Assembly: GCA_001828855.1 (NCBI GenBank)
Contig: MHZT01000051.1
Location: 62,001-126,000, forward strand
Origin: Rhodobacterales bacterium RIFCSPHIGHO2_02_FULL_62_130
GTDB lineage: Bacteria; Pseudomonadota; Alphaproteobacteria; Rhodobacterales; Rhodobacteraceae
DNA: 64,000 nucleotides
Direction of reading: 5' to 3'
In this document: piece by piece, positions 48,293 through 50,880 of the stretch
How the letters are laid out: each line of letters begins with the position of its first letter
How positions within the stretch are numbered: position 1 is the first letter of the stretch
The notes under the pieces: model-generated
Told to the model about the DNA's origin: nothing
The model's input: the letters and a program-made list of their open reading frames with translations, nothing else
Databases searched by the model: none
Program-made: the position numbers and the translations under genes

Positions 48293-48301
48293 CTCGCGGG
48301 C

Positions 48302-48330
48302 TTGACTTCGCACCTAGGGCGGGGTGTATC
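48302..48330 (+). promoter_or_regulatory. Candidate aspS promoter
   Basis: TTGACT (48302-48307), a 17-base spacer and TGTATC (48325-48330) lie 38 bases upstream of aspS. Confidence 0.45.
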
Positions 48331-48367
48331 GGGCCAAATCCTGTAAAGCCTCGTGAAGGGGAAGATG

Positions 48368-50410
48368 ATGCACGCCTATCGCAGCCATACTTGCGCCGAT
48401 CTGAACACCGCCCATGTGGGCCAAGAGGTCCGTCTTTCGGGCTGGGTCCACCGTGTGCGCGATCACGGGGGGGTGCTGTTCATCGACCTGCGCGATCATT
48501 ATGGCATCACGCAGATTTTGGCCGACAGCGACAGCCCCGCCTTTGCCGAGATTGAAAAGGTCCGCTCGGAATGGGTGGTGCAGATCGATGGCCGCGTGAA
48601 GGCGCGCGATGCATCGCTGGTGAACCCCAAGCTGCCGACCGGCGAGATCGAGGTTTACGCCACCGGCCTGACCGTTCTGGGTGAGGCTGCCGAGTTGCCG
48701 ATGCCAGTGTTCGGCGAGGTGGACTACCCCGAGGAAACCCGCCTGACCTACCGCTTCCTCGATTTGCGCCGCGAAAAGCTGCACCGCAACATGATGCTGC
48801 GGTCGAATGTGGTGCGCTCGATGCGGAAACGCATGTGGGATCAGGGTTTTAACGAATTCCAGACGCCGATCATCACCGCATCTTCCCCCGAAGGCGCGCG
48901 CGATTTTCTGGTGCCGTCGCGCCTGCATCCGGGCAAGTTCTACGCCCTGCCGCAGGCTCCGCAGCAGTTCAAGCAGTTGATCATGGTGGCCGGTTTCGAC
49001 CGCTATTTCCAGATTGCGCCCTGCTTCCGCGATGAAGACCCGCGGGCGGATCGGTCGCCCACCGACTTCTACCAGTTGGACATCGAGATGTCCTTTGTGA
49101 CGCAGGAAGACGTTTTCGCCGCCGTTCAGCCGGTTGTGCAGGGGATTTTCGAGGAGTTCGCGCCGACAAAGAAGGTCTATTCCGACTGGACCAAGATCGC
49201 CTATCGCGACAGCCTGAAATGGTATGGCAGCGACAAGCCCGACCTGCGGAACCCGATCAAGATGCAGGACGTGTCCGAACATTTCGCCGGTTCCGGCTTT
49301 GCGATTTTCGCGAAGCTGCTGGAGCAGGACGGCAATGAAATCCGCGCGATTCCGGCACCCACCGGTGGCAGCCGCAAGTTCGCTGACCGGATGAACGCCT
49401 TTGCCCAGAAAGAGGGGCTGCCCGGCATGGGCTATATTTTCTGGCGTCCTCGCGTAGAAGCTGACGCCGAAATGAAACAGAAACTTGAGACTGCAAGCAA
49501 GCTCGCTAAGTTCTTAGATTCAATTAGTGATTCCGAGTTTGGGGCTGAAATTCGGAACAAACTTGAACCGGAGTTCAGAGCCATAATGTCCGAGGCGGAC
49601 GAACGCATGAGCCTTTATGATGAGAAGAACACTTTCCTAGATGATGTCTCCCGAATCCTCGAAGATTTGCATAATCGCGGCCGCCATGAAGATGCGGCAA
49701 AGTTGCTGGAAGAGGCCGTTACTGCTAATAATTTGGAGGCAGCTGGTCCGATTGCCAAAGCACTTGGATTTCAAAAGACAGAAGCAATACGCAAAGAGCT
49801 AAGACTCGGTGTCGGGGACGCTGTGTTTTTCGTGGGCGGCAAGCCCGAGGCGTTCGAGGCCATTGCGGGGCGGGCGCGCAACGAAATCGGGCGTGAATTG
49901 GGGCTGACGGAACAGAACTGCTTCAAATTCGCATGGATCGTCGATTTCCCGATGTATGAGAAGACGGATGAGGGCAAGATCGACTTCTCGCACAACCCCT
50001 TCTCGATGCCGCAGGGGGGCCTTGAGGCGTTGAACGGCGATCCGCTGCAGGTCTATGCCTATCAGTATGACCTTGCCTGCAACGGCTATGAGCTGATCAG
50101 TGGCGGCATCCGCAACCACAAGCCCGAGATCATGTTCAAGGCCTTTGAACTGGCGGGCTATCCGAACTCGGAAGTCGAAAAGCGGTTCGGCGGCATGGTC
50201 AAGGCGTTCAAATATGGCGCACCGCCCCACGGCGGCTGTGCGGCGGGGATCGACCGGATCGTGATGCTGCTGGCGGATGAGGCCAACATCCGCGAGGTCA
50301 TCATGTTCCCGATGAACCAGCGCGCCGAAGATCTGCTGATGGGCGCGCCGTCAGAGCCGATGAACGCGCAACTGCGCGAATTGAACCTGAGGGTCGTTCC
50401 GAAAGAATGA
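48368..50410 (+). CDS. aspS: Aspartyl-tRNA synthetase with extra insertion in GAD domain
   Basis: Class II synthetase of 680 residues; bacterial AspRS usually has about 590. The N-terminal OB anticodon-binding domain covers about 1-105 ([21 protein letters not shown]). Motif 2 is [19 protein letters not shown], and motif 3 is [14 protein letters not shown] near the C terminus. The GAD domain starts near 300 and is interrupted at residues 361-455 by about 95 mostly helical residues (from [11 protein letters not shown] to AVTANN). The GAD sequence then resumes with [15 protein letters not shown] from about 49455 to 49806 is near 47% GC with rare codons. The frame is intact, so the protein is probably functional. 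ATG 48368 is the conserved start; 48365 is an alternative. Confidence 0.93.
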
Positions 50411-50880
50411 GCCTTTACCCCGCCTCGGTTCCGGTGTTCCGCCATTACCTTGCCCGCGTGGCAGCGATGGCGGAAACCGCGACCGACGCGGATCTGGCGG
50501 CGCAACTGGGCGACGCCTTTCCTGCCGCCCAACAGTTTGCCACGGCGGCAGGGTTCGCCCTGCGGATCGCCTGTCCCTTGGCGGGGCGCGACGTGCCGGA
50601 CCTGCCGCGCGCACTGGCCCCAAGGCTGGCAGTGGCGCGGGCGATGCTGGGCGGGATGCGGCCGGATGAATTTATCGGGGCCGAGGATCGGATCATCCAG
50701 CACAGGGCGGGCTTTGCCGAGATCGAGCAGAAGGGGACGGATTTCCTGTTCCTTTATGGCCTACCGAATTTTTTCTTCCATATCACAATGGGTTACGCCT
50801 CGCTTCGCGCTGCGGGGGTTGTCTTGGGCAAGGCCGATTTCGATGGCTTTCACGACTATCCCGCGGGTTTCCGCTTTTGA
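50407..50880 (+). CDS. DUF1993 domain-containing protein
   Basis: A 157-residue, mostly helical cytoplasmic protein with the DUF1993 pattern ([17 protein letters not shown], then [23 protein letters not shown]). The family has a DinB-like four-helix bundle, and its function is unknown. The ATG overlaps the aspS stop (ATGA at 50407-50410), so it is translated with aspS. Confidence 0.82.

Follow-up and report, generated by a model that had tools for sequence, protein, structure and literature searches.

A hypervariable insert at one fixed point of the aspartyl-tRNA synthetase GAD domain in Rhodobacteraceae, probably exchanged between species

By comparison of sequences, the beta hairpin of the GAD domain of aspartyl-tRNA synthetase (AspRS, encoded by aspS) has one fixed point, after GYIFWR and before AAGPxAKN, that is occupied by a short linker, by a conserved segment of 32 residues or by a member of a diverse set of AT-rich domains of 38-105 residues. 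In this context, the insert found in the window (the whole stretch of 64,000 nucleotides analysed here) may be one allele of a hypervariable AspRS module of the Rhodobacteraceae/Paracoccaceae that is exchanged by recombination and whose diversity is selected, a reading to which we give about even chances; taken alone, the exchange of inserts between species is likely. It has the appearance of a single-site, exchangeable and hypervariable module, and does not look like an element visiting many genes.

Results

The aspS gene and its insert in the window

The features of the window referred to below are the following, all on the forward strand.

48368..50407 (stop 50408-50410), +, aspS, bacterial-type aspartate-tRNA ligase, 680 codons (open reading frame; Pfam, TIGR00459, PRK00476)
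49448..49738, +, hypervariable insert, 97 codons, residues 361-457 (comparison with insert-less congeners, which have a 9-residue linker)
49430..49450, +, GAD beta strand before the insert, residues 355-361 (AlphaFold2 model)
49466..49522, +, predicted insert helix 1, residues 367-385 (AlphaFold2 model)
49535..49615, +, predicted insert helix 2, residues 390-416 (AlphaFold2 model)
49631..49675, +, predicted insert helix 3, residues 422-436 (AlphaFold2 model)
49685..49729, +, predicted insert helix 4, residues 440-454 (AlphaFold2 model)
49733..49744, +, GAD beta strand after the insert, residues 456-459 (AlphaFold2 model)
49739..49828, +, apparently imported flank of the IAKALG..GDAVFF type, some 30 codons belonging to aspS itself (low DNA identity with insert-less congeners)

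The gene is a single, complete open frame (680 aa), and its product belongs to the bacterial-type AspRS (aspS_bact), with 575 bits against TIGR00459 (cut-off 373.85) and 790.8 bits against PRK00476 (cut-off 443). An earlier note on this DNA had described an oversized AspRS with an in-frame insertion in the GAD domain, which the comparison with relatives confirms: after the conserved GYIFWR, 97 codons stand in place of the nine-residue linker xAEDGSGxE of the insert-less congeners read, for a net gain of 88 residues, and the bounds first proposed (residues 361-455) were correct to within two residues. The core domains, reported there as intact, give strong Pfam matches (catalytic domain, E 4e-108; OB-fold, E 3e-16), and the GAD match is a broken one, slightly below the cut-off. 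No Rfam family was found over positions 48300-50500.

The description of the insert as charged and helix-prone was also right, and its composition is foreign as well, with a GC content in 120-bp windows of 47-49% against 55-67% elsewhere in aspS. Over this stretch all five other frames contain stops and only its own frame is open, the probability of 97 codons without a stop at the base composition of the insert being 0.0039. Moreover, the absence of intein residues holds, since the window insert starts with P-R-V and is followed by A-A-G; among the 70 long inserts, S or T is the first residue in only two and C in none, all junctions read run into AAGP-like sequence, and no intein family was identified in Pfam scans of the window protein and the inserts.

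No asnS match over the cut-off was present in any of the 13 congeners searched (from a genus sample of 15), and the sole weak match in each of them falls within aspS. Since the congeners searched are without AsnRS, the AspRS of this genus is probably non-discriminating, charging tRNA-Asp as well as tRNA-Asn, which would make it a single point of failure.

One site, many inserts

When the window protein was compared with 61 relatives, a single full-length match was obtained in only four genomes, including its own, and at the same codon the loci read in G007, G009, G035 and G026 each have a long insert of their own. With an insert-less congener as the query, 394 genomes of the family (about one per genus) were searched, and an aspS match was found in 385, as one continuous match in 278 and as more than one in 107. 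Besides the genome of the window, 104 of these 107 were searched again (G366 and G381 were left out), G007 and G009 were added, and the sequence of 95 regions was retrieved. At least 50 of the 385 genomes, the window's included, have a long insert of 38-97 residues at exactly this site, and at least 43 the conserved segment of 32-33 residues, both counts being lower bounds because individual reading was directed at the genomes with more than one match. Two loci outside the search pattern (L183 and L190) were read separately and belong to the 50, standing outside the correlation set described below (68 of 70 inserts used); L127, with a short linker, is excluded from the long-insert count.

Hence, the insertion is not peculiar to this lineage, as the earlier note had supposed. 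Conversely, the condition that the note itself set for its refutation, namely the same segment with native codons in the majority of Rhodobacterales AspRS, is not borne out, with continuous matches in 278 of 385 genomes and long inserts that differ among the loci read. Assembly error, also raised at the time, is unlikely as a general explanation, because dozens of assemblies made independently have their inserts at one and the same codon; the carriers include G306 (one contig), and G096 and G339 (four contigs each). Two drafts within the 50 (G171 and G220) contain an insert-bearing fragment and, in addition, a fragment in which aspS is continuous and has no insert. The cause may be a mixture of strains or contamination, and these drafts may also be an instance of closely related strains differing in their allele.

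Among 80 named species-level loci, 79 could be parsed (L255 could not), yielding 46 short linkers (7-9 residues), 10 members of the 32-residue class and 23 long inserts of 42-105 residues. The genera and species with long inserts include Cypionkella, Fuscovulum, Paracoccus, Defluviimonas, Jannaschia, Ruegeria, Rhodobacter maris and Rhodovulum, and 105 residues is the largest insert at the site in the regions read.

Outside the family, the GAD site is rarely enlarged in the sample taken. From 284 non-family genomes of the class, a match was obtained in 279 and was split in only five. When the split-match genomes and three further ones were searched again, seven of the eight could be classified, G571 being the exception: G586, G686 and G610 proved fragmentary, G448 was broken elsewhere, G546 showed no gap and G465 had 7 residues at the site; in the alphaproteobacterium G060 (locus L373) a low-complexity repeat of SGSGRDSxVV units occupies the same GAD site. 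Beyond the family, inserts were also identified in Afifella and two Rhizobiales-like loci. As a control limited to one gene (alaS), whose product has loops not matched for tolerance, AlaRS was surveyed in 149 family genomes, and 139 match the alaS model end to end, with spans of about 2570-2630 nt and no large insertion.

Insert content is uncoupled from the host gene

Within the genus of the window, long inserts are present in 3 of 15 species and are mutually unrelated. In the genus of G400, which is probably Rhodovulum because one of its inserts is identical to that of Rhodovulum steppense, 4 of 16 species carry inserts, all different (53, 64, 71 and 76 aa); the flanks of these four carriers are 91-94% identical in DNA and, by flank identity, they are nearest to one another. 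A cluster of 34 inserts, hereafter the superfamily, spans genera and ends in the consensus AxFLxxAYFGxxE, a C-terminal motif detected in two of these four inserts.

In a sample of one genome per species, the rank correlation of insert similarity with rest-of-protein similarity was -0.03 (68 inserts) and 0.02 (34-member superfamily), against 0.65 and 0.58 for the left versus the right protein half in the same sets, the latter values being at the floor of 300 permutations. BLAST bit scores of the inserts against body identity gave 0.04 over 2278 pairs (p 0.07). Furthermore, unrelated inserts occur in bodies 96-97% identical, and the most similar inserts in bodies 82% identical. The centre is uncoupled from its flanks, as would be looked for in a hypervariable module exchanged by recombination. 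For the 35 residues directly after the insert, the correlation was 0.45 and 0.39 in the same two sets; these lower values fit the import of a short downstream tract, and also fit the smaller number of residues.

On a tree of 80 aspS bodies (built by a quick method), the long-insert state requires 17 changes, at least 12 of them forced by well supported branches, compared with a mean of 20.8 after shuffling; a value as low was reached in 12 of 500 shuffles. The long-insert state is widely scattered yet mildly clustered, and so is partly inherited. On the same tree, the aspS of L283 (CP059262.1, titled Exiguobacterium profundum isolate SSD5) groups with Fuscovulum blasticum, and the title is apparently wrong.

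Beside the insert, the right flank in the window has the look of an imported tract, with an identity to seven insert-less congeners of 0.47-0.59 per 30-bp bin over 90 bp, rising then to 0.81-0.86, in an ungapped comparison whose left side is unreliable past about 60 bp in this genus. Among the insert-less congeners themselves the same bins give 0.82/0.79/0.75. The right flanks of G007 (0.86/0.84/0.74) and G009 (0.79/0.71/0.74) are near these values and form no clear tract, and the exchange reading is somewhat weakened because an imported flank is seen in only one of the three insert-bearing congeners. Among the four carriers in the genus of G400, right-flank identity climbs with distance from 0.81-0.84 to 0.97. 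Across the survey, the 30 residues after the insertion point fall into two main types (L260, L269, L273, L274, L287 and others), one of which is AAGPLAKNIG..GDAAFF; the second also occurs without a long insert, which suggests a separate reshuffling of this part of GAD.

The inserts as protein domains

At four-fold sites, the GC content of long inserts is 0.49, against 0.87 in the same genes, and GC3 is below that of the body in 48 of 49. In all nine homologous insert pairs examined (40-71% amino acid identity), third positions diverge more than first and second ones; synonymous differences are at or near saturation in these nine pairs, and dN/dS values, given for only two, were 0.19 and 0.26. 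Because of this near-saturated synonymous change and third-position excess, the insert lineages look old and constrained. By these comparisons, the long inserts behave as translated domains under purifying selection.

The AlphaFold2 model of the window protein places the insert as four predicted helices on the GAD beta hairpin, at a moderate level of confidence (pLDDT 77.5 on average, 67-84 in the insert blocks and below 50 in some conserved core segments), and a superfamily insert of another species is also predicted to be helical at the same hairpin (mean pLDDT 69.9). In a Foldseek search with this second model of an insert-bearing GAD, AspRS structures came out on top, 1EQR being the best (E 9e-4). 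The solved bacterial AspRS of E. coli (1EQR and 1C0A) and P. aeruginosa (4WJ3 and 4WJ4) share the GAD scaffold of the insert-bearing enzymes. The window protein aligns with chain M of 4WJ3 on both sides of the insert, and between the aligned stretches the P. aeruginosa enzyme has nine residues (369-377), compared with 98 (363-460) in the window.

The conserved segment of 32-33 residues with which many Roseobacter-like genomes fill this position in GAD is of the EKTADAVAQELGITVKEAQAKLKSGEVEGGME and KQSADSIAQERGISVKEVNALIKSGEIVLGNE types (43 of the loci L123-L215, as well as L239-L243, L245, L275, L302 and L304). It resembles a helix-turn-helix by eye, with weak Pfam HTH matches (E 0.02-0.055). 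At four-fold sites its composition is native, with a GC of 0.81 versus 0.81 in the same genes, although GC3 is below the body in 35 of 43. The correlation of this segment with the body was 0.11 (p 0.07), against 0.37 for the body halves; since this class also tracks its body poorly, short conserved segments carry little signal or power in such comparisons.

Search for copies, donors and linked genes

The earlier note also considered an undescribed mobile coding element, a suggestion that the searches do not favor, since the insert of the window is found once in the genome it comes from (no second copy at E up to 10) and the superfamily profile (A1) is strong in aspS only; related copies at several loci, as for a repeat-type element, were not found. 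Up to E 0.01, profile A1 gave matches in 29 of the 248 genomes of the family that were searched. Thirteen were strong (E 3e-9 or better) and all in aspS genes, as expected by construction because their inserts are rows of A1, and no strong match outside aspS was detected in the 248 genomes. The 19 weak matches (E 1e-4 to 9e-3) fall at loci other than aspS, and in 16 cases the locus is an open frame of 820-921 residues; five of the six translated were, by eye, one conserved helical repeat protein, and the likeness was taken as chance. Regarding a diversity-generating retroelement, the genome holds no second copy of the window insert, and the inserts differ as whole sequence families.

Phages were rejected as donors, because a tblastn search with the whole AspRS returned 34 phage records with identity below 60% among the best 20 listed. 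Plasmids were likewise rejected: among the best 20 listed of 57 plasmid records, the top match was an aspS with 83% identity and a match length leaving no room for an insert. In Pseudorhodobacter turbinis, an aspS (83% identical) lies on NZ_CP039965.1, a 1.58 Mb record filed as a plasmid and resembling a chromid. Neither the window insert alone nor one superfamily insert matched phages, plasmids or viral contigs, and a third insert had no match in viral contigs, the only set tried for it. An AspRS relative is encoded by 14 viral contigs, and in the eight where the site is readable, seven have 3-14 residues and one an unrelated 36-residue segment. In six large viral contigs (L312-L314 and L316-L318; 240-608 kb), the best segment of the AspRS is 54-58% identical to that of the window.

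Pfam and PHROGs scans of 67 of the 70 long inserts and three 32-residue segments found no family matching more than one member, and PADLOC, applied to 26 of the 70, no defence family matching more than one. NCBIfam, applied to the window protein, showed no insert family shared by more than one member, and a PDB sequence search with the window insert gave nothing better than E 1.2. Furthermore, no gene tied to long inserts was identified among the 30 largest ORF clusters from 66 loci (22 long-insert, 38 short linker and six 32-residue), with crude calling that recovered aspS in 47 of the 66. Within listings and the opening parts of abstracts in the open-access literature, we found no account of a hypervariable AspRS insert.

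Discussion

Bacterial modules that are hypervariable and exchanged by recombination include the specificity domains of type I restriction systems and the capsule and antigen loci. The AspRS inserts resemble them in having conserved flanks, a highly diverged and exchangeable centre and relatedness uncoupled between the two; unlike those modules, the centre sits here in a cytosolic, essential tRNA synthetase, and we know of no immune role for AspRS. Among aminoacyl-tRNA synthetases, lineage-specific insertion domains and conserved signature indels are inherited by common descent and so mark lineages. The AspRS insert is similar in being an in-frame domain in a loop with the catalytic core intact; however, sister species have different long inserts and related ones reappear in distant species, and the 32-residue class is the closer match to such indels. 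With Rickettsia palindromic elements, in which one repeat family is spread through many genes of a genome, the insert shares in-frame coding insertion into an essential gene, but the AspRS inserts occupy one site and that of the window is single-copy in its genome.

Exchange would proceed by homologous recombination through the conserved aspS flanks, swapping alleles between species, for which transformation or gene transfer agents would suffice, with no mobile enzyme of its own being needed. Diversity might then be kept by frequency-dependent selection exerted by something that recognises the AspRS surface, such as a phage protein, a toxin or a peptide antagonist. A new domain at the GAD tip could block or re-specify the binding and let catalysis continue, and an enzyme supplying both tRNA-Asp and tRNA-Asn would be a rewarding target for an antagonist. 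In the genome comparisons, no antagonist, partner or phenotype tied to the insert was found. The full form of this account, an arms race in which the GAD tip is bound by a widespread antagonist, be it a phage protein, a toxin delivered by contact or a peptide, and the bacteria respond from a large and old pool of interchangeable helical caps shared horizontally, is put forward tentatively, as a possibility with perhaps one chance in three.

Inserts might instead be near-neutral passengers, gained and lost over time, that are tolerated at the tip of the GAD hairpin and carried along when aspS recombines, with no antagonist involved. The intact catalytic and OB-fold matches agree with such a permissive loop, as do the many relatives that manage without a long insert, and a four-fold-site GC near 0.5 might reflect weak selection on codon use. 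We consider it unlikely, since homologous inserts recur across genera in the 34-member cluster, the insert protein is under apparent purifying selection with predicted helices, four closely similar aspS genes in one genus all retain an insert with different contents, and AlaRS offers no counterpart, its loops being unmatched for tolerance. Alternatively, each insert could bind a cognate factor, encoded at another locus, with which it is exchanged, such as a toxin, an antitoxin or a translation partner like GatCAB. Diverse modules, predicted to be folded, on one scaffold do recall specificity domains, and with AsnRS missing the enzyme probably needs an amidotransferase for Asn-tRNA; however, no linked partner gene was seen in the crude ORF clustering, no PADLOC family matched more than one of the 26 of 70 inserts scanned, and a conserved housekeeping partner would not account for such diversity, so that this is quite improbable.

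That the insertion is an ordinary lineage-specific one, inherited vertically and changing fast by point mutation and indels, would agree with the mild clustering on the tree, with the mutual nearness of the four carriers in the genus of G400 by flank identity and with the native composition of the 32-residue class. For the long class it is largely contradicted, and overall very improbable, given that insert and body correlate near zero, against 0.58-0.65 between the two halves of the body, that distant bodies can have similar inserts and bodies 96-97% identical can have unrelated ones, and given the foreign composition and the imported flank in the window. A fixed insertion point within a highly conserved stretch of an essential gene would also suit protection at the DNA level, with the insert breaking up a target that a homing endonuclease or integrase would otherwise recognise in the conserved aspS codons. 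To this last explanation we give hardly any credence, because any interruption would serve, the diversity among sister carriers and the purifying selection are left unexplained, and no insert above 105 residues occurs at the site in the regions read.

Essential translation enzymes are usually taken as vertically inherited markers. A hypervariable, exchangeable domain in an essential tRNA synthetase breaks with that expectation and would be very unusual for a housekeeping enzyme. The diversity of the inserts hints at a ligand or an enemy of AspRS not known so far, and dozens of natural domain swaps in one enzyme provide a ready library with which the role of GAD is directly testable. If the arms race were true, aspS would be a serotype-like locus inside the cytosol, in an enzyme from which alone the cell probably obtains Asp-tRNA-Asp and the precursor of Asn-tRNA-Asn.
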